Positions 6,405-54,433 of a stretch of 64,000 bases of DNA are shown one piece after another. The stretch covers positions 117,292 to 181,291 of the forward strand of contig CAXIPT010000019.1 of the NCBI GenBank assembly GCA_964030475.1. Reading direction: 5' to 3'. The position numbers and the translations under genes were made by a program. Source of the DNA: Tethya wilhelma (taxonomy: Eukaryota; Porifera; Demospongiae; Tethyida; Tethyidae). The notes under the pieces are model-generated. The model searched no databases, was not told the DNA's origin, and was given only the letters and a program-made list of their open reading frames with translations. The first letter of the stretch is position 1; each line of letters begins with the position of its first letter.

Positions 6405-7030
6405 TTTACTACCAAAAGTAGCGCTAAGCTTCTAATCCTAGAGACTATGAGCTAGGAAAACTTATTGTCACGATCATGGCCTTTTGCACTTCTAGACCTC
6501 GTAGAGCCCCATTGTATATCAGTACAAACTCAAACTTGGTATTTTACTAGTGTGATACATTACCTAAATGCACAGCAAGTTTAACCGATTATACACTGAA
6601 TTCATTTGAAGTGAATGACATCATCATATAAATTAAATTTTTAATTTTTAGTAGCTACGCCTTCCTTTTGTTTTTCTAATACTAAAAGAGATTGGGCAAA
6701 GTATTTTTATGATGCAACTAAGCAACAATCAAGCTAACTATACTCCAAGTATTTTTGCTTAGTGAAGCTTTTGCTGGTAAAAAAGCCTATAATGTACAGG
6801 AAGGTCTAATACGAGAGGACATAGCCGCACGTCTAAAGCTATTTTCCAAGCTAGCCAACCAGCCTTACAAAAGTGATGCTATGGCATATAGCCTAACTAT
6901 CCCTGCACCTACGTAGCAAGTTTCAAGCTTATCTTCTGAAGGGTTGTGGAAAAAACATCGCTCTAAACCCTATAATCTTGATGGCGAACATCGTGACTCA
7001 ATGACGAGTAGTACAAGAAGTTCTAACTCC
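6405..7030 (+). mobile_element. TTAA MITE copy, truncated by the piggyBac element
   Basis: Closely matches 11030-11665, including taccaaaagtagcgctaagc, caaacttggtattttactag and gaaggtctaatacgagagga. The match ends where the piggyBac TTAA at 7031 begins. Confidence 0.75.
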
Positions 7031-7356
7031 TTAACTAATTACCCACGAAGTACGCACATTTGCGTCATCAATTTTTAGCGTCTAAACGCGAAGTACGCAC
7101 TTGTGGAGCAACTGCACTAATCGAACAATTTTGCGCTGTTGCACTCTTGGGCGTAGCTGCTGACCTTTGTTCTTCTGCAGAATCTCTTCGTTACGGACTC
7201 GGTAAGCGTAATTGTTAGTAAAAATGTTATGTATAGTATGAATATATTTTCAAAAAGTGCTATTGAAATAAAATTCTATGACAATTTAGTAAAATAAAAA
7301 AATGAAAAGTACAGCTGCTTTTACAATAAATCTAATAATAAATAAACAACTAGAAT

Positions 7357-8800: not shown

Positions 8801-8911
8801 AAAATTCAAGCATTTATCTTACCAATTGTCTCTTGTCTTATCTTGTGTGCAGGAAAGGGTGTGCATGTGTAAATAGAAGCGTTATAATCTTGCCTGCTGT
8901 CTTAATCGCTC

Positions 8912-8964
8912 NNNNNNNNNNNNNNNNNNNNNNNNNNNNNNNNNNNNNNNNNNNNNNNNNNNNN
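8912..8964. other. Assembly gap (53 N)
   Basis: A run of N lies between the 3' part of the piggyBac transposase and an inverted copy of its 5' end. Confidence 1.
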
Positions 8965-9758
8965 GTGTGTGTGTGTGATGAATGTATGAGTGATGTTAGT
9001 GTGTAGGGTGTACACATGTGTTTGTTATTCTGTGTATTCAGTTTGCTAGGCCAATCACTAGGTGTGTGTGTGTGTGTGTGTGTGATGTCTGCACACGGAG
9101 ATTACTTTTTCATATATTATTTTGAGTATTATGTAGGTGATTACTAACTGGCTTGTTCCAAAGCTGGAATCATCCATGTGTGAATCAGAGCTGGCGTCAT
9201 CTTGGACATCACTTTGCTCATCCTCATCCTCATCCTCATCCACATCAGAAAAATCTGGTAGGTCCAACTCCATACCATACTCGTCATCACTACCTTCTGC
9301 CATTGGTCCATGCCAGTCATCATCCATTGACGGAAACATATCTACCACATCATCAATGTCCATCTCCTCTGCACTGTCATCCATGACCTGCTCAGCAACC
9401 TCTTCACATGTCAGCCTTGGTCTCTTAGCCATATTCTAGTTGTTTATTTATTATTAGATTTATTGTAAAGCAGCTGTACTTTTCATTTTTTTTATTTTAC
9501 TAAATTGTCATAGAATATTATTTCAATAGCATTTTTGGAAAAAATATTCATACTGTACATAACATTTTTACTAACAATTACGCTTACCGAGTCAGTAACG
9601 AAGAGATTCTGCAGAAGAACAAAGGTCAGCAGCTACGCCCAAGAGTGCAACAGCGCAAAATTGTTCGGTTAGTGCAGCTGCTGCACAAGTGCGTACTTCG
9701 CGTTTGGACGCTAAAAATTGATGACGCAAATATGCGTACTTCGCGGGTAATCGGTTAA
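8965..9758 (-). mobile_element. Inverted second copy of the piggyBac 5' end
   Basis: Reverse-complement counterpart of 7031-7830: terminal repeat ending ...CGCGGGTAATCGGTTAA (TTAA 9755-9758), exon 1 coding on - from 9432 (MAKRPRLTCEEVAEQV plus acidic tract), and the CA repeat. A few percent differ, for example EDEDEDEQ in place of VDEDEQ, so it is not an exact copy. It includes only the 5' end and no catalytic core. Confidence 0.9.
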
Positions 9759-10050
9759 GAAACTTTGTTTTTCACAAAAAATACTTTTTACACGAAGAGA
9801 AATCTCCATGTTTTGAAAAAAGTAAAATTTAACAAAAGTGTTTCTTTTGTGCTGAAAAGTGTTTTCAAGACAAAATAAACGTTTTTTGTGAAAAGAGTAG
9901 TCCTTAGTCACACAAAAAAACTAAGTTCTTTATTTCAGCGTGAGAAAACTTTGTTTTTTACCAACAATGTTTTTTACACAAAAAGAAAGCTCCTTGAGTT
10001 GAAAAAAGTAAAATTTTACAAAAGTGTTTCTTTCGTGCTGAAAAGTGTTT
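9759..10050. repeat. Two ~110-bp direct repeats, period ~183
   Basis: gaaactttgtttttcac...gctgaaaagtgttttca (9759-9868) recurs as 9942-10050 with changes. It is AT-rich and non-coding. Confidence 0.8.
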
Positions 10051-11786
10051 TTAACCCTTTAATTACGAATGACGGCTATAAACATCATTTAATTATTGCA
10101 TTTGAAATACGAAGTGGCTATTCGTCCGGTAACCGTAAAGCTACGGCATACCTATCCGTCCGGCAGTGAGCACTGCGCATGCGCAACGTAAGACCTTCGA
10201 CCTTTGCCNAATAAGCGTCTAACGCTCCCATAGTCGATCTGGAACGTTGCCTCTTGAAATAAACTGATGCCAAAAATTTTTGGCTACTCTTTCTGTTGGT
10301 ATCTCTGAGTGTAGTAAGCCTGCTAAGGTTGTCTTTTCGCTGTTTAGGCCTGAAAGTTAAAAAGAATAACTGTCTAAGCTGTGGTTTAAAATTTGGCAGG
10401 AAATTGCTGCAGTAATTTGCCAAAAAGAAACTTTTTATTCTTGCTCATTAAATATTCATAACAGAATGTACCCCGTAACCTTAAGGCCACAAACAAATCA
10501 CCATCAATCACATCATTATCATATATCTGGAGAGATAGTTGTAACACGTTCTCTGCTAGTTCCAGAAGGTCCTTTCGACAATATCAGGGTACACTGTTTT
10601 AATATGCTGTATAGCTGTCTCTGCAAACTCCAGAAAGGCATGCTCAGCGTCCTCCATTACTCTCACGTGATGATATGATAATGTCACATGACCATTTTGT
10701 AATTATGTGTGCGCGCAGAGGAGGTACGACATGCACATCTAGGCGCTATAGCTCATGTGTGCACAACTGTCGCTTTTCGCTTTCCATTTGAGCAACCATC
10801 GATTTCAAAAGATCAATTCTAAGAAATCTATCTTACAATATCGATTTTTTAATATGGGAACTATATAATATATCGTTTTCAAAGATCAATTAAGTTAATT
10901 CTGAGAAATCTATTTTGTAATATCGATTTTACAATATCGATTTCAAAAATCGATTCCGAAAAATCAATTTTACAATATCGATTATTATGCTCATTGTTTG
11001 AGGACAAGAATTTTGTCTCCTAGGGCGTTCCATACTCTACTACCAAAAGTAGCGCTAAGCTTCTAATCCTAGAGACTATATAGAAAATGAGCTAGGAAAA
11101 CTTATTGTCACGATGGCCGTGGTCGTGACCTTTTGCACTTCTAGACCTCGTAGAGCCTCAGTTGTATATCAGTACCAACTCAAACTTGGTATTTTACTAG
11201 TGTGATACCTTACCTAAATGCACACCAAGTTTAACCGATTATACGCTGAATTCATTTGAAGTGAATGACATCATTCTCTAAATTTAATTTTTAACTACGC
11301 CTTCCTTTTGTATTTCTAATACTAAAAGATTGGGCAAAGCATTTCTTATGATGCAACTAAGCAACAATTAAGCTAACTATACTCCAAGTATTTTTGCTTA
11401 GTGAAGCTTTTGCTGGTAAAAAAAGCCTATAATGTACAGGAAGGTCTAATACGAGAGGACATAGCTGCGCGTCTAAAGCTATTTTTCCAGCTAGCCAACC
11501 AGCGCGATGCTATGGCATATAGCCTAACTATCCCAGCACCTACGTAGCAAATTTTAAGCTTATCTTGTGAAGGCTTGTGGAAAAAACGTCGCTCTAAACC
11601 CTATAATCTTGATGGCGAACATCGTGACTGTTAGTCGCTCAATGACAAGTAGTACAAGAAGTTCTAACTCATTAACGCGTCAACCACGTAAAATCGGTTA
11701 AAGTTTAATGCTAATTTGCTACGCTGCAGAGCACGTGCTAACTTTCTGAAGATGTCTATAGCCGTCATTCGTACTTAAAGGGCTAA
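10051..11786 (+). mobile_element. TTAA-type MITE with a nested MITE
   Basis: Terminal inverted repeats: CCCTTTAATTACGAATGACG after TTAA at 10051, and the complement CGTCATTCGTACTTAAAGGG ending next to CTAA at 11783-11786. No transposase. A related end lies at 37557-37586. A single N at 10208 marks a small gap. Nested inside is a second TTAA MITE at 11231-11701. Confidence 0.7.
11231..11701 (+). mobile_element. Nested TTAA MITE
   Basis: Starts TTAACCGATTATACGCTGAA and ends CACGTAAAATCGGTTAA, giving inverted termini TTAACCGATTWTACG. The interior matches 6577-7030 and, inverted, 5394-5529. Confidence 0.7.
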
Positions 11787-11924: not shown

Positions 11925-12520
11925 CTGGTTAACAAAGTAATGCTGGTAATGCAAGTAATGAAAGTAAGCAAGGTAATGCAGGTAAGCAAGGTAATGCTGG
12001 TAATGCAAGAATATTGCAGGTAAGCAAGGTAATGCAGGTAAGCAAGGTAATGCTAGTAATGCAAGTAATGTAGGTGAGTTAGTAATGCTGGTAATGGAAG
12101 TTATGCAGGTAAGCAAGGTAATGCTGGTAATGGAAGTATAATGCAGGTAAGCAAGGTAATGCAGGTATATAAGCAAGGTAATGCTGGTAATGCAAGTAAT
12201 TCAGGTAAGCAAGGTAATGCTGGTAATGGAAGTAATGAAGGTAAGCTAAGTAATGCTGGTAATGGAAGTTATGCAGGTAAGCAAGGTAATGCAAGTAATG
12301 CAGGTAAGCTAGGTAATGCTGGTAATGGAAGTAATGCAGGTAAGGTAGGTAATGCTGGTAATGGAAGTAATGCAGGTAAGCAAGTAATGCTGGTAATGGA
12401 AGTAATGCAGGTAAGCAAGTAATGCTGGTAATGGAAGTAATGCAGGTAAGCAAGGTAATGCTGGTAATGCAAGTAATGCAGGTAAGCAAAGTAATGCTGG
12501 TAATGGAAGTTATGCAGGTA
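11925..12520. repeat. Minisatellite, ~36-bp unit, left part
   Basis: About 16 variable units of the form GTAATGCTGGTAATGGAAG + TAATGCAGGTAAGCAAG, with half-unit variants. ORFs on either strand are by-products of the repeat. The same array continues at 21820-22305; the CACTA element lies between the two parts. Confidence 0.95.
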
Positions 12521-12599
12521 CACTGTTAGAAATAAGGTGTCCATCAACACCCCATTATTGACCGAAAAAATTTTCGGGGTGTTACCTAACACTCCCACA

Positions 12600-12760
12600 T
12601 GGTAAAAACTGGACTATCCTACATGGACAGTTGTATTGGATAGGTGTGGTACACACTATTGTCAACTATCCTTCGTTTGAGTTTACATGATTGATGGAAG
12701 ATAGTCAGTTTTGACTATCCTTTATCATGCGGCTAGTGATGTGTGTGTCATTTAACTATC
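12600..12760. repeat. CACTA left subterminal repeats (CTATCC/GGATAG)
   Basis: Several copies of actatcc or ggatag occur within 160 bp of the left end (12613, 12645, 12676, 12713, 12755). CACTA elements typically carry such clustered motifs as transposase binding sites; that role here is inference. Confidence 0.55.
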
Positions 12761-12858
12761 CCAGCTGTAATAAGCATCATGTAATGACATGATGCTTATT
12801 ACAAGATATATTCTATATAATTATTATATAGGATAGTTAAATGACAGACACATCACTA
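12734..12858. mobile_element. 125-bp MITE with 28-bp inverted repeats, TA target
   Basis: Arms: tagtgatgtgtgtgtcattt... (12734-12761) and its near-exact complement at 12831-12858. In the middle, gcatcatgtaatgacatgatgc is a further palindrome. TA at both edges suggests a Tc1/mariner-type MITE. Confidence 0.75.
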
Positions 12859-15639
12859 AATTTACAATTTTCATGAAGTAATAATAATCATGAATTGAGC
12901 AAATTAATCATCAAAAAACACAATCACAATCACAACACGCAGGTGAGTTATTCATACGGTGAAACATACAGAACGGTTCCATATACATCATCATAGCGAT
13001 CAAGTAAAGAAACAGTACGACCTCTGATTTTATCAACAGTAATAAATTTACATGAATCAAAAAGATCATGCTCCCAAATTGTAACTGGCTCTCCACATAC
13101 ATGTTTCAAAGAATGCTCCTTAAAAAAGCTTAAATATACCAGAATATGGAATTGTGAATGAATATTATTATCCACACACGTAGTCACATTAACCTTTGCA
13201 ATGTAATTAATTCTTCCTGGCCTGATATCTCCATCGAGTTGAGCGAATACTATACTTGAATTCTTAGAACGACTTTTGTAGCTTCCATATTGTTTATTGT
13301 TTATCTTAACAAATTTATATCTACGATACAATGTTGTAGTGCTGGCATTAGCACCAGACACATAGAGAGTCTGTATGGTTTGAAGGAGTTCATCCATTTC
13401 TGTTGAATCAAAGCTACAGCGGGTAAAACTATGTGGTAGTGCCACTTCACATGTTTGAGTTACTGCTTCATTTCCAAGTGTTCCTACTGGACCTCGTTCA
13501 AAGTTCAACAAGCACTTAAAATCATCTTGGAATTCTTCTGGCAATTCAATTTGCATCGTACTAGTGTCTATAAAAAAACGTTTCATCATTTGTGTTTCTA
13601 TTGAACGATTATTAGTAGGCAGTTTTCCGAGAATGCCATTGAAACGCTCGAATGCAAACAGCCAGAAATGATTGATTGGCCCATAGTCTAGAATACACTC
13701 ACGCAAATGGCAACTCATTTTCATGTTTGGGGTTATGACGTCCTTTCCAAATATTTCTTCCACTATTTTACAAAATTGAACTAACAAATCATCGGCAATT
13801 GTAACATTGTCCATTGTTAATGTTGCAATCTGCAAGCCTTGACGAACAGTCGCCAACATTCAAGGTGCTCAGGAGCCAACTGACCATGCAAACATATTAG
13901 TGAGTAATGTATAGTCCAGTTTTTGTATTGATCAGCAGTGAAATGGTAGAACGACGACTCTATTTTAGATGGTATTCTTCCAATATCTGGTGGTACGGAC
14001 ATCTTGTTAATACGATTCTGAATTGCAACTAAGTTAGTGTCACGAAGGATTCCCTTATCAAGCAATATCTTTTTGAAAAATGTTTTGGCCAATACTAAGA
14101 ATAAATTGTGCATTGGATCGATAACCAACATAGTTGGTGGGTCAAAATAAGGAAGTTTCAATAGTACAGATTAACGACAACCAAGCTCAGATTCCAGTCG
14201 AGCAAGCTCAGGTTTAGTCTTACATTTGTCAAGTTTTGAAACATCCTGTCTATGATCTTCATTGCATCTAGGTATCCAACTGCTACGTTCAAAACCAGAA
14301 TAATCAAGCTTATCTTCAAAATCCAAGGACGGAAAATATTTTTTACACTTCGAGCAACCAAGGTGAGCACTGTGGCTAAGAAAACCACAAAGTTTTCGTC
14401 CTGCTGGAATATCACATGAGCAGCAAATAATTGCACCATTAACAATTTTATTTTCAAAGTTTGATCCATTGTTAACCTGCAATTCCTTTCCATTCCAGAA
14501 TTGTAGCAAATCATCTACTAAAGGTGCTATATACGAATTGACTGTGAGTTCTGGCTCACGAGGTCCAGGCATTATTCCAATTAAACAGATGTTGTCCAAC
14601 TTGTACCTAAGATTTCTTGGTAAATTAAATGTAGTCAAATAAATAGCACCAACTGAGTAAGTCAAATGCTTATAGGGCTGAAACCAATCTATATTGATCA
14701 TAAATGCATAAGAATGCTCAGCAGAAAGAAAAGGTTTCCCATTACAGTTTAAAAACTTCTTCCATATGCGACCATCATATACGTCTTTGAGAATTCCTTC
14801 TGAAACCACACGGTTTCTCCAACGACTAACATTTTTCGTGAAATTCGAATTTGACAGCAAGTGTTCTAAACTAGTATGTAGGTCGATATAGCAATAAGTC
14901 ATTAATGGATAAAACACTTTTCTGTTTCCAGCTAGCTCCACTGTTTTAAACAAAACTGAATTACATTTATGTCTTACTCGACCTCGACCTAATTTTGGGA
15001 TATGTTCGCAAACTTTGGGTACATTCCTAATGCAATATTCATTATATATTCCTACTATTCCACAACGTTTACACACAGGGTACTTATGAAAGGTACGATA
15101 GTTTTTACAATACAGACTCCTGGCTTTATAAAATGTTTTTGGAAATGCAGCCCCAATTTCTGTACATACCGTTACATTGGTTAGCCGTCCTACTACAATG
15201 AAGGACTTTAGAAATCGAAATATAATGTCCATCACCCGATCAGTCATATGCATTCTTGCATGAAGAATCAGAAAGAATGCAACTAGCCATCTTACTAGTG
15301 ACAAAGAAGATGAATTTACGTGTGCACCATCTTGTGGAGAGTTTGGTGGTGAATCGCTATCCAGCTGCTCATCACTTGATTCCTCACAATCACTCCATAC
15401 CTCTTCAGATGTATCTGTCATGATGTACCATTGCATGCATAAAAAAGTTATATAGCTACGTATACGTAAGTTATTTAGCTAGTAGTAATAAAAAGTATCC
15501 ATTATGATGCAGGCTGATGATCTAGTCTCACACGCCAGATTTTCCGTGAGGAGAACATCTGGCCTGTAAAACTGGTAGATAGCATATGTTAAAAACTATC
15601 CAACTAAGAATACTTTATGTAAGAGATGCCTTTACCTAT

Positions 15640-15935
15640 TGATTTACAGTATGCGTCTGTATCTTGTGTATATACTGTGTACATCAGTCATCTTTATGTC
15701 TATATTGAATTCCTTGTTTCTATTGTGCTCTCTGTATCTTGTACATCTACTGCACATCTATATCTGTATCGTATTTCCTGCATCTATATAACGTTCTCTG
15801 TGTCTTGTTTATCGAAGACACAGAGAACACAATAGACACAGGGAATACAATGGAGACCCTATCAAGTGGATGTACACAGTAGATACACAATTAAGATACA
15901 GAGAACACAATATAGCCGGGCACAGGGAATACAAT
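15640..15935. repeat. Imperfect inverted repeat (GTATCTTGT / ACAAGATAC-like)
   Basis: cgttctctgtgtcttg followed by agacacagagaacac (15787-15830) makes a hairpin. Flanking copies of ctctgtatcttgtacat and ttaagatacagagaacac extend it. Non-coding, in the transposase intron. Confidence 0.6.
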
Positions 15936-16041
15936 AGCAACACTGTACGTGACATGAGTTTATCGTACTATTCAATGATATTCATAGCTGGATATTTTTA
16001 CATTTACCATCCACCTGTGAAACTACTGATGATCACATTAA

Positions 16042-17463
16042 ATAATATTATTTATTATATACTTATATAGTTACTATACTAAGTTAAGTACAGAGGTAGC
16101 GGGCAATAACTTCCCGTATTGCCCTGCTTTTATTGCCCGCTTGCAGAAATTTGTTCGCGCTATGCTCAGCCAATCACGCTGCACACAAATCAATTTTACG
16201 CGCAAATTTTAACCAATCACAGATAATCGTTGCCACGGTATAAAAGAAGGCTGCATAGAAACCACTGCCAGTTTTTTTGTAAATGCTTGGAGAGGTAAAA
16301 GCTACGCTAGTCAAGCTAGTTCGTTGACACAGAGAAAGCCTTCAGTACGGGTGAGTCAGCTACTAAACGAACAGCAAAACCCCACCCATGCTACATCCGG
16401 TAAACAAATCACTGCCCATTGCTGCAGACAGACGGGAGTCGAACTCGTCGAAGGCATTGAAGCTTCTTGATAGTGCCAGAAACCAGGAGAAAGCTATAAA
16501 TTTTGTGCTCTTGCTATGGCCAATACTCCTGCAGGCCTGCTTCAAGCTCATTTTTTCTGTGGCTAACTGTACTGTAGTCACAACATGCTAGCTAGTTAGC
16601 AAAGATGCATGCCCCTGTTGATAAGTATATATTAAATCCATTATTACATTCCTTTGGTCGGGCAATATGGCTAAAATATTGGTTCTTGACTTTTGCATTG
16701 GCCCTCCCTTCGGTCGGGACCAATACTCCAGTCTCGAACCAATATTTAGCCATATTGCCCTCCCAGTCATGTAATAATATATATTTATTGTATACCTATA
16801 TTGCTACTATACTAAGTTTAGTACAGAGGAAGCGGGCAATAACTTCCCGTATTGCCCTGGTGTTATTGCCCCCGCCATATTCAGCCAATCACGCTGCTAC
16901 GAAAATTAATTCGAGCGCGAATTTTGACCAATCACGGATAACTGTTGCTACAGTATAAAAGACGGTTGCATAGAAACCACTGCACAGTTTTTTTGTGAAT
17001 GCTTGAGAGGTAGGAGCTACGCTAGTCGAGTTTGTTCGTTGATAGAGAAAGCCTTCAGCATGAGCGAGTCAGCCATCAAATGAACGAGAAAACTCCACCC
17101 ATGCAATATCCGGCAAACGAAACACCACCCATTGGTGTAGACAGACGGTTCAAAGCGCTCGAGCGTTCGAGGTGCTAGAAAAAAGTAGAACGCTACCAAT
17201 TTTGTCTTCTTAGCTGTGCTAAGGTCAAAAAGTGACTATTCCTGCTTTTAGTTCATTCTTTTTCAGGCATTGTAGTATCAATCATTTCTAAGTGATGCCC
17301 TTGTTTATAAATATACAATAAATCTATTGTTGCATTTCTTTGGTCGGGCAATATGGCTAAACATTGGTTCTCGACTTTGCATTGGCCCTCCCTTCGGTCG
17401 GGACCAATACTCCAGTCTTGAACCAATATTTAGCCATATTGCCCTCCCAGTCATGCAATAATA
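16042..17463. repeat. Two tandem ~730-bp units with promoter-like core and inverted repeat
   Basis: Units start near 16042 and 16775 (tactaagtt...acagaggaagcgggcaataac; period 733). Each has two CCAAT boxes (agccaatcacgctg and accaatcac), a TATAAAAG about 25-30 bp downstream (16241 and 16956), then a T-run and gcttgagaggta resembling a splice donor. Each 3' half folds: gggcaatatggctaaa pairs with tttagccatattgccc. Possibly a promoter-bearing non-autonomous element; no ORF. Confidence 0.7.
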
Positions 17464-17844
17464 TATATTTATCTGATGCATGCAGTTTAATACCTGGCTC
17501 AGAGTCATTTTCGTCTTCAGTACTTGTTGACTCTGTCAGTTGGGGATCTGAGTATGGTGAACTATCCCGTTAAAGGATACTGAAAGTGGAGGTAGACATG
17601 GAGAGCTACTGTTCTCTGACTCTGAGTGTGCGGCCACTGTGGAGTGGTCACTGTGACACTGCTCAGTTCCTAACCGACGCGCGTCAGCATCATTGGTAGA
17701 TTGACTGCGTAGCCACTGATCATTGCCTTCATTGTAGAATAGCCTCTTGTGAGCTTTAGAAGTTTTATAGGCTACTATTTCTTCACAGTGTGGACAAAAG
17801 CGCTGGTCAAGGTGAAGTCGCTTGGATGCTCTTGGGGTAGCCAT

Positions 17845-17956
17845 CGTCAGATCTGGATCGGGTCAAAGTTCGCATTAACTCGTGATGCGCACGTGATGTT
17901 CAGGTGACTATTTTTTTGGCGCAATTTTCCCAGTCGTTTTCTTCGCCTGTTCTTCA
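17845..17956. promoter_or_regulatory. Short divergent intergenic region of the CACTA gene pair
   Basis: Only about 110 bp separate the - strand transposase ATG (17844) from the + strand accessory ATG (17957). It contains actcgtgatgcgcacgtgat (E-box-like cacgtg). A shared bidirectional promoter is likely by position; no TATA is evident. Confidence 0.4.
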
Positions 17957-18860
17957 ATGGCAGCAGGAAGAATTCGTGTTAGATCCTCGATGGCTGAAAA
18001 ATACCCAGACTCTAGTGATGCATTCGCCGAATCAAGCGAAAGTGAGTCCGAACATAGCCCGAATGATATTGAATTTGACTCGCTAAGTGAGATTGATGAA
18101 ATAGTATTTGGCAAGAAACAGTCTAGGCCTGGTGGAAGTCGCAGCAAGCGAAGTTTAAGCACGGAAAATCCAGGTCTACTTACACCATCAAGCAAGAAAA
18201 AGAAACAAAAGTCAACTAGTGAAGCATACAAGAAAACATTCCCAACTAGCAGCTAAAAAACTGTCTAAATCCGCTGTCACAAAAAGGATAAGCTCAAACC
18301 CAAAGGATCAAACTCCCATTGCTCATACAGTTCACCTACAAAAGAAAAGGCTATACTCTGCTGGAGAGACAAGTGGTGATGTACCGTTTGAGCGTGAGAA
18401 TGTTTTGTCTGAGCATCAACAAATGTTGATAGTGATCCGCCTGCTCGCAATCGTGATCCACCTTCTGATGGCGATGATAATGATTTGGAACCTGTGTTTA
18501 ACAACAACTCAGAACAGCGTACTAAAGATGCTTTGGGTGAAATTTCAAACATGTAAGGAACTGTTTTGAAGAAACTTGAAGAGCAAGATAGAAAGATAAT
18601 GAGAATGGAGAAGCAATTCAAATCGTGTAAAGCTTCTTCGTCAGGATCTTCTTCAGATATGGGGAAAAAAAGAATCATACCACAAGAAGTACAAGTAAGT
18701 AGTTAGTATCAATAAACCTTTCTCTTTCCCTTGTGTGTGTCTCCATTTATATTATGTTCTCATGTATACTCTTGAGTCTCTGTGTTTGTCTCTCCCGCTT
18801 TGTGTGAATACTATGTCACTGTACGTATACGTACAGATGGACAAACTCTAACCTACAGTG

Positions 18861-18861
<1 letters not shown>

Positions 18862-18914
<53 letters not shown>

Positions 18915-18928
18915 ACAGTCACATACAC

Positions 18929-18975
<47 letters not shown>

Positions 18976-19045
18976 ATGTGACTGTGTGTGTGTGTGTGCA
19001 CGTGTGTGTATGTGTGTGTGTGGGTGTGTGTGTGTATGTATTACT
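18862..19045. repeat. (CA)n followed by (TG)n microsatellite
   Basis: CA repeats at 18865-18930 turn into TG repeats at 18931-19040, so the locus can fold back on itself. It lies in the first intron of the accessory gene. Confidence 0.95.
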
Positions 19046-19647
19046 CTCCCACTTTATTTGTGTGTGCTCTCTAATTTATATGATACTACAACATGATCTG
19101 ATCTGTTTTTGTGTCAATCTCTTACTATATAATATGTGCACACTTAACACATTTGTTATTGATTTTATAGAGAGAGACGAAGATGACTTACAAAGCTCTG
19201 TTGGATAATGATGATGATTTTACAGGGTTTGATACATCTTCTGAGTAAGTATTTCTATTTTATAAAATTATGAGATTTGTAGATGACATGTTTTACCTTT
19301 TGTTTCACAGAGCTACATTCGAGCATCCTATTAACCAATCTGTTCGTAACAAACTGGTTAAAGAAGTACAAGGAAATAACCCTAGCTTCACTTCAGCTGA
19401 CATTAGAGGTAACTGATTATATACATGACTTTTGACCAATCGAACTTAATCACTTTTGTTTTGTACCACTAAAGCTGCGGCCTACACATATTATAAAAGT
19501 GTTTCTCAAGAGGAGTCATTGAAAAGAAGAGGGGTTTACGGACAGAGGAAAATTCAAAGGCGCAGACGGGAAAGAGTTAATAGAGTATGCACATACTTTG
19601 AGTAATGCTAAACACCTTTATAAAGTATTTTCCAAATCATGCAGTGC

Positions 19648-19771
19648 TGTGTGTGTGTGTGTGTGTTTGCATGTGTGTGTGTGTGTGCTTGTGTACATGT
19701 GCGTGTGTTTGCGTGTGTGTGTGTGCGCATGTGTGTGTGTGCGTGTGTGTGTGTATGTGTGTGTGTGTGAA
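19648..19771. repeat. (TG)n microsatellite with C/A interruptions
   Basis: Long TG run in the fourth intron of the accessory gene. The ORFs of Val/Cys and Thr/His across it are artefacts. Confidence 0.95.
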
Positions 19772-20149
19772 TTTGGTAAATTAATTGCACTGTCTGTACT
19801 CTTTCTTATGATGTTGTAGAGGCTATTGCAGAGACAATCTGAGTTTCAAAGGCTTTCATACAGCGATTCAGACAGGGTGAAGTGGAAGAAAGTACTTGTG
19901 GTGAATATGGTGTCCAGCGATGAAAGTGGTGTGGATGAAAATGATGAGCCAATATTTTTGGTAAAGGAGCTTACATGGAGAAGTAGGAAAGTAACAAATT
20001 TTATGACAAAGTTGGATAGTGCCCATGAATCCCGAATGTCAGAGCAGGCTAAAAGGCAAACGAAGCTCCGTGTGCGTTCTAAAGCAACTTCTGAACGTCT
20101 GGTGCCCTCTGGCATTCCTTCATGGGCTGTAAGCCATTGATAGACTTGG

Positions 20150-21810
20150 ATTGATTATATTCAGTTAACATTATTCAATACTTGGTAACTGTGATTACAC
20201 ATCAGTACCTCATTATTTCAAGTATGTTGATCCGCTACTTTATTGACTGTATGCATGTTATTCAAGTTGATTGCGTTGTGTTCTTTGTATCTATTGTTTA
20301 TCAAAGGGTGTGTATGTATCTCTTCATTATTTAATTATTCAGTCTCAAGTTATAATAATAATTATTATTATTATTATTATAGGGAAATTCTAATAATAAA
20401 GAGCTAGAGCTATAATTATATGCATGAAAAAACAAAAACAACACTGAGCTATCCTTCCTGTGTCATGTAGATACTGCTGGTGAATACCATGCAGGCCATG
20501 TGCTATATCCTTCAACTAACCTGTACAGGACATATGTTCTATCAATCACCTATCCCCTATCTGACACTTAGCTCTATCTTGTACAAGATATACACCAGGA
20601 TAGTACACATATCCTATAGTATAGGACACACCAGAAAGCATGTGCTATCTTGTACCAATACTGGACACAGTATGGGAGATGGTAATTGTACATGTGTCCA
20701 GTGTCGTAGAACACCTATTCTGTGTTGAACAACACCCATGGGTGTTTATCAAAACCTTTTGCAAAATAATACTTTATACTCATATATAATACATCTTAGC
20801 ATTATAAGAACACTTAGAAATGGCTATATGCAACTTAGAATCATCTAATAGTGCCAAATCATCTACTTTTAAACAGGCTAATTTATATTCAATAATAATG
20901 ACATCATTACTGAGCATGCTCAGTAGCGCAATTTTGAACTTAGAGTGAGCAGCTGTAAACTTTGTCTTGTGTGAAGATGCTGAGTTCTTCAACAAAACCC
21001 TGAAAGGATGACTTCTAGGCAGGAAAAACAGAAAAAGAGAGAGTTAAACTTGTCAAGAATTCAATTTGGAGTGCTTGAGGTAAGAAAAGTTGATGTTTTA
21101 CAGTCTAACTGAGCTGTACTAACTGGGCTGATATTTATTTTTTCAGCGCCGTTGATAAGTCATTGGAAAAGCTACAATACCCCCAAATATGACTTCCAGA
21201 GAGCATAAAAAGATGGCTGCAACCTAGATAAACTCAAAATTTCAGGTAAGACCTGCTATATAAGGCGTACTATTATAACTGTATGGTTGATAACAAATCG
21301 TGAACTTTGAACCTTTGTAGATCAGCGTGCTAAGCCTGATCCTGTGAGAGAAAGGCTTACTTGGTCTTAGGAACAGTGATGGCAGTTGTGGTGAAATGAA
21401 GAGTATACACAAAAGCCTAAAATGCACTCTTTCATTTTGTTTAAGAGACTGCATGAAGGTAAGTGTAAGCATCATTAAAGGTGTGTATGTGTGGATAGCT
21501 ACATATTATTAGTGTGCAAATTAAATAGGAATGGGAAAAGCTAGCTATATGTCAATTAGACAATAACGTCCTCAATATTTTACTGTACAGGTAGCCACAA
21601 GCAGCAACTCCAGCTGGCTAAACATTTGTCAACAAAGACTCTGGACAGATCATAGAAACAATTTATGCTGTGTTTGAATTGAATTTTGTTCATGAAATTG
21701 ACACATTAAAGGTGCTGTGTAGCTACAGATTGTTGTATAGCTGGGTGCTCAATAACAACACAGGAGTGTTATATAGCACATAAAAGAGTGCTACGTAACA
21801 CTCGAGTGAA
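20150..21810. other. CACTA right arm, non-coding, subterminal repeats
   Basis: 20440-20710 is dense in gctatcc, cctatcc, gatag and ggacac motifs, matching in style the left arm at 12600-12760. 20340-20385 is an ATT-rich run. 20960-21470 has GT/AG-like boundaries (gcttgag|gtaaga, gcatgaag|gtaagt) around short open stretches, but I find no convincing protein. 21725-21815 holds repeated aacac/gtgtt motifs. Confidence 0.5.
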
Positions 21811-21819
21811 TTAACAGTG

Positions 21820-22305
21820 TAAGCAAGGTAATGCTTGTAATGGAAGTAATGCAGGTAAGCAAGGTAATGCAAGTAATGCAGGTAAGCTAGGTAATGCTGT
21901 AATGTAGGTAAGCAATGTAATGCTGGTAATGGAAGTTATGCAGGTAAGCAAGGTAATGCTGGTAATGGAAGTAATGCAGGTAAGCAAGTAATGCAGGTAT
22001 AAGCAAGATAATGCTGGTAATGCAAGTAATGCAGGTAAGCTATAGGTAATGCTGGTAATGGAAGTAATGCATGCAGGTAAGCTAAGTAATGCTGGTAATG
22101 GAAGTATTGCAGGTAAGCAAGGTAATACAGGTAAGCAAGGTAATGCTGGTAATGCAGGTAATGCAAGTAATGCAGGTATAAGTATAAGCAATTTGCAAGT
22201 AATGCTGGTAATGGAAGTAATGCAGGTAGGCAAGGTAATACTTGTAATGGAAGTAATGTAGGTAAGCAAAGTAATCAGTGCTGGTAATGCAAGTATAATG
22301 CTTCC
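21820..22305. repeat. Minisatellite, right part
   Basis: About 13 units of the array seen at 11925-12520, in the same orientation, beginning TAAGCAAGG directly at the CACTA end and stopping before an AT-repeat at 22308. Confidence 0.95.
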
Positions 22306-23088
22306 GTATATATATATATATCTCTTACTGGTATATATGTAATTCTTTCTCACTTCTTAAATCTTCCAATAATTTCTTCCAATAATTTCTTCTGTATTCT
22401 CCATTCCAAACAAATTATGGCTGCCTAAAATTCTCAAATCACATTCATGGTGTGCAAAGCACACTCACTCACTCACTGCCTATAAGCATCAATCTATGTA
22501 ACTAATAATACCTTAATTAATTTTATGCACTTAATTATCTCAGTCTAGTGTTTTGTGCAATAATGATCATCAAGAAGCTGAAAAAGAGCATATTAACCCA
22601 CCTGGAAGTCACCTAAACATAATTGATTGCAGTGAAGCAATAATTAATTTTGGGTATGGCTTATTCAGGCAAGACAAGCCCTGGCACAAATTGCTTGGCA
22701 ATGCTTAGGGAGAATACAAATACCAAGTTTGAAGATCTATAATTATGTTTATCTTGGCTTGGTGAGTAATTAGATTATAATATTAGAACCAGGCTGTTTC
22801 CATGCATGGTGAGAAATATAAGTGTCACCCTGTAAACCATATAATAAAGAGACAAAACACAGAGATGCAGAAAGGAAAACATTCACACACTAAAACTCTT
22901 ATATTAAACTATGGGCAAGTCCAAAACACCAAGTGTAATCATTATGTATAGGCGACATCACATTAATAGAGAGAAAAACTATATACAACAAAAAAAGTGT
23001 GTATAACAGAATAATAATGATTAATTGATTGTCAATACTCATTTATAGCAGCTGTTGTGTATTACTATAGCCGATTATGATTATGCCT
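22306..23088. other. No gene seen
   Basis: AT-rich with a short (TA)n at 22308-22322 and a (CACT)n patch at 22463-22480. It may hold the 3' flank of the gene that ends at 23089; no terminus was recognised. Confidence 0.5.
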
Positions 23089-53478: not shown

Positions 53479-54433
53479 CACTGTTAGAACAAGGATGTGT
53501 ACATACACCCACACATATACAGTAAAAATTACTCCAGAGTGTATTAAAGCAGCTTGGGGTGTATTTTGAAACAGATTGGGTGTAATTTAAAGTAGTTTTA
53601 GATATTCTGAATATCGCCAAATACACAATATTATTTTGTACAGTAAAGAGGCACACAAAAAGAATGAATTCAAACACTGTATAGTCCACTATAACGGTTA
53701 GTATGCTCTGCATGCTTTAACCTTTTCTCAGGGTGTAGTACATAACTTTTTCAAGATGCTGAATTACTTTCACTATAACTTTTGAAGCTGAAATAGGTTG
53801 GTCACTCAGGCTGTTCACACTGCCTCACTACATATGCGTGATAGAAAATTGTAGTCCAAGTAAAAATAGATTATGAGAGTAAGAGATGTGTCTTTATAAA
53901 CTTAGCTAGTTTTGAATCAGAATATCTCATCCATGGCCTGGGAAATTTGGAGTATATTATCTATGATTCAGTCCAGACTCATCAATGTAGCTATGGCCAG
54001 CTATTAGTGACAGTTTAGCTAGTAACCAAACCTAGGCCAAAAGCATCGGTCGTAGCCGGATCATAAAACAAATAAGTTAGCCATGCACTTAGATGGATAT
54101 CTTACCTCAGTTGCTTCAGCTCCACAGCACTTGGCCTGGAGTGTTGTTCTGAAGACTCTACTTTGTATATAGAGATACCATACTATATCTCTTCTTAAGA
54201 TGTAGACTGTCTGCACCACAGTAAAGTGAGAAAAAGTTTGAACTGCAAGCTTTCTAAATAACGCACACCCGGCACTTTGGGGTGAAAGTTCGATTTTTTT
54301 TATTACACTCTGCTAGTGCACTGTTAGCTACACCCCCATAGGTAAATGCTTACACCCTACTATGTTTTATACTCCAATATATATGGTTGTTTACGCCCTA
54401 GGGTATGTTATTTACACTCTTGTGCTAACAGTG
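53479..54433. mobile_element. Non-autonomous CACTA element (955 bp)
   Basis: Ends CACTGTTAGAACAAGGATGT and ACTCTTGTGCTAACAGTG are inverted repeats of each other, start like the 12521 element, and have TG outside both (2-bp duplication). Subterminal gggtgta/tacaccc motifs occur on both sides. Non-coding. Confidence 0.8.

Follow-up and report, generated by a model that had tools for sequence, protein, structure and literature searches.

What divides the minisatellite array in this DNA, and to which ends does the transposase inside the dividing sequence belong? The initial annotation read the insert as one 9.3 kb CACTA element. We studied the window, that is, the whole 64,000-nucleotide stretch of DNA analysed (G000:C19:117292-181291), and searched a genome assembly of 124.6 Mb in 204 contigs. 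We found that the insert very probably consists of two nested transposons inside one minisatellite, not of one element, and that the nest preserves clear fossil traces of transposition of the ordinary kind.

The array and its outer junctions lie as follows.

About 11910/11937 to 12520, + strand: left half of the minisatellite, 36/18/9-bp unit (Tandem Repeats Finder)
12519..12520, no strand: left copy of the TA target duplication of the outer element (junction sequence)
21820..21821, no strand: right copy of the same TA duplication (junction sequence)
About 21819/21820 to 22295, + strand: right half of the minisatellite, 36/18/9-bp unit (Tandem Repeats Finder)

The two halves have common periods of 36, 18 and 9 bp in Tandem Repeats Finder and a single orientation; a shared unit and orientation had been proposed in the initial annotation. 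The left array ends with GCAGGTA at 12520 and is followed by CACTGTTAG from 12521; at the other side, GAATTAACAGTG of the insert (last 7 nt, AACAGTG) ends at 21819, and the array continues with TAAGCAAGG (TAagcaagg). Thus, the junction sequences agree with the array stop at 12520, the insert at 12521-21819 and the resumption with TA given at the outset. When the halves are joined over a single TA, the product is GCAGGTAAGCAAGG, which is indeed a normal unit, as had been claimed; the 14-mer occurs seven times in the left array and three times in the right array.

A fusion of two unrelated arrays during assembly could in principle produce such a picture, and the assembly is imperfect here, as a fragment on another contig (C2) that carries the left array-outer-inner junction (L041, G000:C2:1390801-1400800, about 8826-9883) lies beside a gap of 12 N. 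However, a normal unit is restored when the two halves are brought together over one TA, and the insert has the ends of a family whose copies show 2-bp duplications. The assembly also contains the left junction a second time: the C2 fragment agrees with the window at 69 of 69 array bases, with 98.8% identity over 1,067 bp. We therefore regard an artefact as extremely improbable. The C2 fragment, which diverges into different sequence past window position 13518, is an allele fragment or a duplicate; as it holds the same junction, both insertions predate the split of the two copies.

The outer element is composed of two parts in the window, and its right end carries a small deletion.

12521..12595, + strand: 5' 75 bp of the outer element, with the terminal inverted repeat CACTGTTAGAAATAAGGTGT; recurs elsewhere in the genome
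20697..21819, + strand: remaining 1,123 bp of the outer element (matches to the 3' region in the genome)
21812..21813, no strand: point of the 89-bp deletion in this copy, between GAATT and AACAGTG

A genome search for like ends, which had been suggested as a check, was productive. A query of 420 bp from the start of the insert gave 37 matches, 31 of which cover solely the first 49-75 bp and lie at places other than the window and the C2 duplicate; the rows set apart were the window, the C2 fragment, a copy on contig C130 and three internal matches in inverted orientation. A query of 520 bp from its end gave 34 matches (33 besides the window). In addition, ends of the CACTGTTAG type within three mismatches numbered 156 genome-wide, vs 18 for a reversed-pattern control. 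From 40 fetched stretches, we located both ends in 19; the other 21 were dropped (three long stretches, eight with the 3' end unmatched, eight with the 5' end misplaced and two with short 5' matches). All 19 paired copies have an exact 2-bp flank duplication (TA in 12, TG in four, and TT, AA and CA in one each), and none has a 3-bp duplication. As the ends recur at 31 places and the 2-bp flanks are present in 19 of 19 copies, the outer ends are not due to chance.

The outer element thus belongs to a family of non-coding DNA transposons of about 1.3 kb, with no transposase gene of its own in the copies examined. Among the 19 paired copies, 18 measure 1,275-1,321 bp and the remaining one measures 2,151 bp. 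Seventeen were aligned; these are short and gene-less, with a mean pairwise identity of 96.1% (93.4-99.2%), and the outer halves in the window are 92.7-95.7% identical to them. In one displayed copy (L056), the inverted repeat CACTGTTAGAAATAAGGTGT is perfect over 20 bp. The same copy has the motif AACAC/GTGTT seven times in the first 200 bp and six times in the final 330 bp, counts that no single one of 500 shuffles reached, and not once in 650 bp of the middle. With CACTG...CAGTG termini and a 2-bp duplication in 19 of 19 copies, the family combines CAC...GTG ends with a duplication of 2-3 bp, as CACTA/EnSpm elements do.

The initial annotation was right about where the window copy ends on either side, about the duplicated TA and about the unit that was hit, except that the right end of this copy is atypical: 89 bp are gone beside the terminal 7 nt, which are all that the copy keeps of the right-hand inverted repeat. 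All 27 of the other right ends examined continue for 80-89 bp past that point and then end with AACAGTG. In the search with the 3' query, the match stops at query base 512-513 in 28 of the 33 non-window rows, and none reaches the last 7. The junction of GAATT with AACAGTG occurs once in the genome, in the window.

Tc1/mariner elements duplicate TA and often start with CACTG or CAGTG, so the outer family could be assigned to that type, and TA was indeed the duplication in 12 of 19 copies. To our knowledge, however, Tc1/mariner elements are held to be strict for TA, whereas seven of the 19 duplications are perfect but not TA. The subterminal AACAC/GTGTT clusters look like CACTA-type ends, and the paired outer copies examined have no transposase inside. 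A Tc1/mariner origin is thus unlikely.

Inside the outer element lies a second one, with its own ends and its own duplication.

12593..12595, no strand: left copy of the TCC duplication around the inner element (single TCC in uninterrupted copies)
12596..20696, - strand (that of its transposase): inner element, 8,101 bp (ends, C130 copy, uninterrupted sites)
20697..20699, no strand: right copy of the TCC duplication (window sequence)

The inner element, 8,101 bp long, is of the CACTA/EnSpm type; it is bounded by CACATG...CATGTG and flanked by a duplicated TCC (3 bp). In the short outer copies, base 75 is directly joined to the base that has number 8177 in the insert of the window, and the genome contains the uninterrupted landing site, GTTACCTAACACTCCAGTGTCGTA, 27 times (control, 0). 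At the same site in the window, AACACTCC is followed by CACATGGTAAAA and, at the other end, TACATGTG is followed by TCCAGTG. Removal of the inner element together with one TCC leaves 1,195 bp; addition of the 89 bp of the relatives gives 1,284 bp, which is inside the 1,275-1,321 bp range. The copy on C130 corresponds to the inner 5' part (window 12595-14632) with 96.4% identity, and its start adjoins unrelated sequence. The motif GATAG/CTATC occurs 7 and 7 times in the end 400 bp of the inner element vs 10 times in the 6,000 bp middle (unshuffled counts). The ends begin with CACAT and lack the CACTA core, and their perfect inverted repeat is 6 bp only. The inner 3' end has a single genome match, the window itself, so that the 3-bp duplication is that of one insertion. 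In a related two-gene locus (C16, L091), a scan of 8 kb gave no CAC...GTG pair with a duplication.

The initial annotation can be restated as a single autonomous 9.3 kb CACTA element, of which the copies of about 1.3 kb are internal deletions joined at the shared TCC. Non-autonomous elements often arise via internal deletion at short repeats; this common origin and the lone TCC in the short copies fit that account, as does a place on contig C1 where Transposase_21 was matched at the DNA level about 0.35 kb away from a 5' end of the outer type, the two being separated by one N. However, the segment to be deleted has CACATG and CATGTG directly inside the TCC repeats, and it has its own subterminal motif (GATAG/CTATC), whereas the AACAC/GTGTT series continues across the joint in the short copies. 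A second long copy did not turn up, the only match of the inner 3' end being itself. Furthermore, the one-element reading had been staked on there being no transposase copies with ends elsewhere; the independent C130 copy begins exactly at the first base of the inner segment, with CACATGGTAAAA (CACATGG) and not with CACTGTTAG. The deletion-derivative reading of the copies of about 1.3 kb was dropped once the terminal families, the C130 start, the TCC and the 27 sites had been compared, and we consider a single element very unlikely. Thus, of the claim that a CACTA element entered the array, the insertion of a DNA transposon stood, while the C130 start and the 27 uninterrupted sites argue that it is not one 9.3 kb element; the transposase is to be credited to the inner element and not to the CACTGTTAG ends.

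The inner element of the nest carries the following genes and a further insert.

12948..15478, - strand: remnant of the Transposase_21 (tnp2) gene, in three open pieces (14171-15478, 13817-14170, 12948-13859)
16049..17472, no strand: additional insert within what is probably the transposase's first intron, two tandem copies of about 700 bp, 77% identical overall
17536..17862, - strand: probable first transposase exon, zinc-ribbon-like, below the Pfam cut-off, a putative assignment
17957..20140, + strand: companion gene, several pieces, divergent from the transposase; its last open piece (19820-20140) is conserved

The three pieces of the tnp2 remnant are separated by one in-frame stop and a frame change. 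The 435-aa piece (14171-15478) matches PF02992 (Transposase_21) over residues 228-410 with 61.4 bits (cut-off, 28.6). The companion gene starts at a distance of 95 bp from the exon that is probably the transposase's first, and a stop and frame changes lie between its pieces; some of these breaks may be introns that went unrecognised. A genome search with its last piece, of 106 aa, gave 28 matches. In a pairing test of 26 companion matches against the first 35 of 84 transposase rows, 12 of the 26 were less than 6 kb from a transposase match and 14 had none that near. All 12 close pairs are divergent; therefore, the companion gene is a standing partner of this transposase lineage. The companion protein has 44 homologues in the protein database at E <= 0.001, with PF26792 precomputed for 26 of the 44; it gave no Pfam match at E <= 10 with a library that lacks the PF26792 model. 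Its AlphaFold model is poor (mean pLDDT 65.8, pTM 0.29). Fragments related to the 16049-17472 tandem repeat are present on C2.

Directly observed were the two pairs of ends, the duplication that goes with each, the landing sites without interruption, the loss of 89 bp and the broken frames. In the history that we propose for the nest, the minisatellite array would be the first layer. The outer element of about 1.3 kb, with CACTGTTAGAAATAAGGTGT inverted ends, would then have entered the array at the TA of a unit, doubling this TA, and was presumably moved by a transposase supplied in trans. The inner element, with 8.1 kb and two genes, would have entered the outer element at 75 bp, doubling TCC. 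A cut-and-paste mechanism is probable in this history. At some time, the outer copy in the window would have lost 89 bp beside its right end, keeping 7 nt of the inverted repeat; the loss is placed most simply after the outer insertion, because it is absent from every other copy. The transposase and companion genes of the inner element probably decayed thereafter, and the tandem insert of about 1.4 kb may have been gained by the inner element later or already carried by it.

EnSpm elements have CAC...GTG ends and 3-bp duplications, according to a passage in PMC12730594. The inner element resembles CACTA/EnSpm (maize En/Spm) in its Transposase_21, CAC...GTG ends, 3-bp duplication, subterminal repeats and two genes, although its ends start with CACATG, not CACTA. 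Maize Spm makes its proteins from a single unit by alternative splicing (passage in PMC1636069); unlike this single transcription unit, the two genes of the inner element are divergent. A 2-bp target duplication is given for TRC elements in passages of PMC4298943 and PMC1636069 (in the latter, for 7 of 14 SmTRC1 copies). The outer element is like the animal TRC elements (SmTRC1; Spongebob of Hydra) in its 2-bp duplication as far as those passages describe it, but its ends are CACTG and not CCC, and the outer copies known have no transposase to compare. Mirage makes a 2-bp duplication. ESTA makes TA dinucleotide duplications (passage in PMC12730594). The 2-bp, often TA, duplication of the outer family is also like that of ESTA and Mirage (CMC group, TA or 2-bp duplications). 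Neither element is described in the literature passages, which include those from PMC4298943, PMC12730594, PMC4158355, PMC1636069 and PMC2884549; this does not prove their absence from print.

Nested insertion, non-autonomous copies and insertion into a tandem array are well known in general biology. The nest gives the exact ends and target sites of two transposon families at one locus, and it corrects a natural error, in which the outermost inverted repeats are given the transposase that lies between them. For the inner element, the 27 outer copies without interruption are ready empty sites. The most interesting by-product is the divergent companion gene; it lies head-to-head with Transposase_21 in all 12 close pairs, which makes it a usable lineage marker. 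Tentatively, two CACTA-like systems that differ in target choice may coexist in this genome, a 2-bp, TA-preferring one with CACTG ends and a 3-bp one with CACAT ends; the latter might be a head-to-head two-gene lineage, defined by a divergent companion conserved across many Transposase_21 elements, possibly a TNPA-like end-binding partner.

A second CACTGTTAG end pair is present in the window at 53479-54433 (CACTGTTAGAACAAG... and inverted CACTGTTAGCACAAG...), with TG on both sides; judging from its ends, it is consistent with another element of 955 bp with a 2-bp duplication. A third CACTGTTAG start lies at 54319.

In a unit-by-unit best-match comparison of the array halves, the identities were 0.926 (left to left), 0.902 (left to right), 0.846 (right to right) and 0.873 (right to left), with no clear sign of separate homogenisation. 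An unoccupied array was not found in searches with the left flank (43 rows, from the best 40 of 295 candidates) or the right flank (11 rows), the unique part of each flank matching only the window, nor in a search with the array (30 rows), which gave related arrays on C21, C13, C6 and C1; the one inspected, on C21, has flanks other than those of the window array. At the right edge, the array is adjoined by a repeat fragment at 22298-22404 (GCTTCCGTATATAT...); the repeat was matched at 10 other places, and the five of these that were inspected have no array beside it. The left flank at 11400-11670 contains a dispersed repeat with 39 other copies among the best 40 of 295 candidates, one of which lies at about 6761-7035 of the window.
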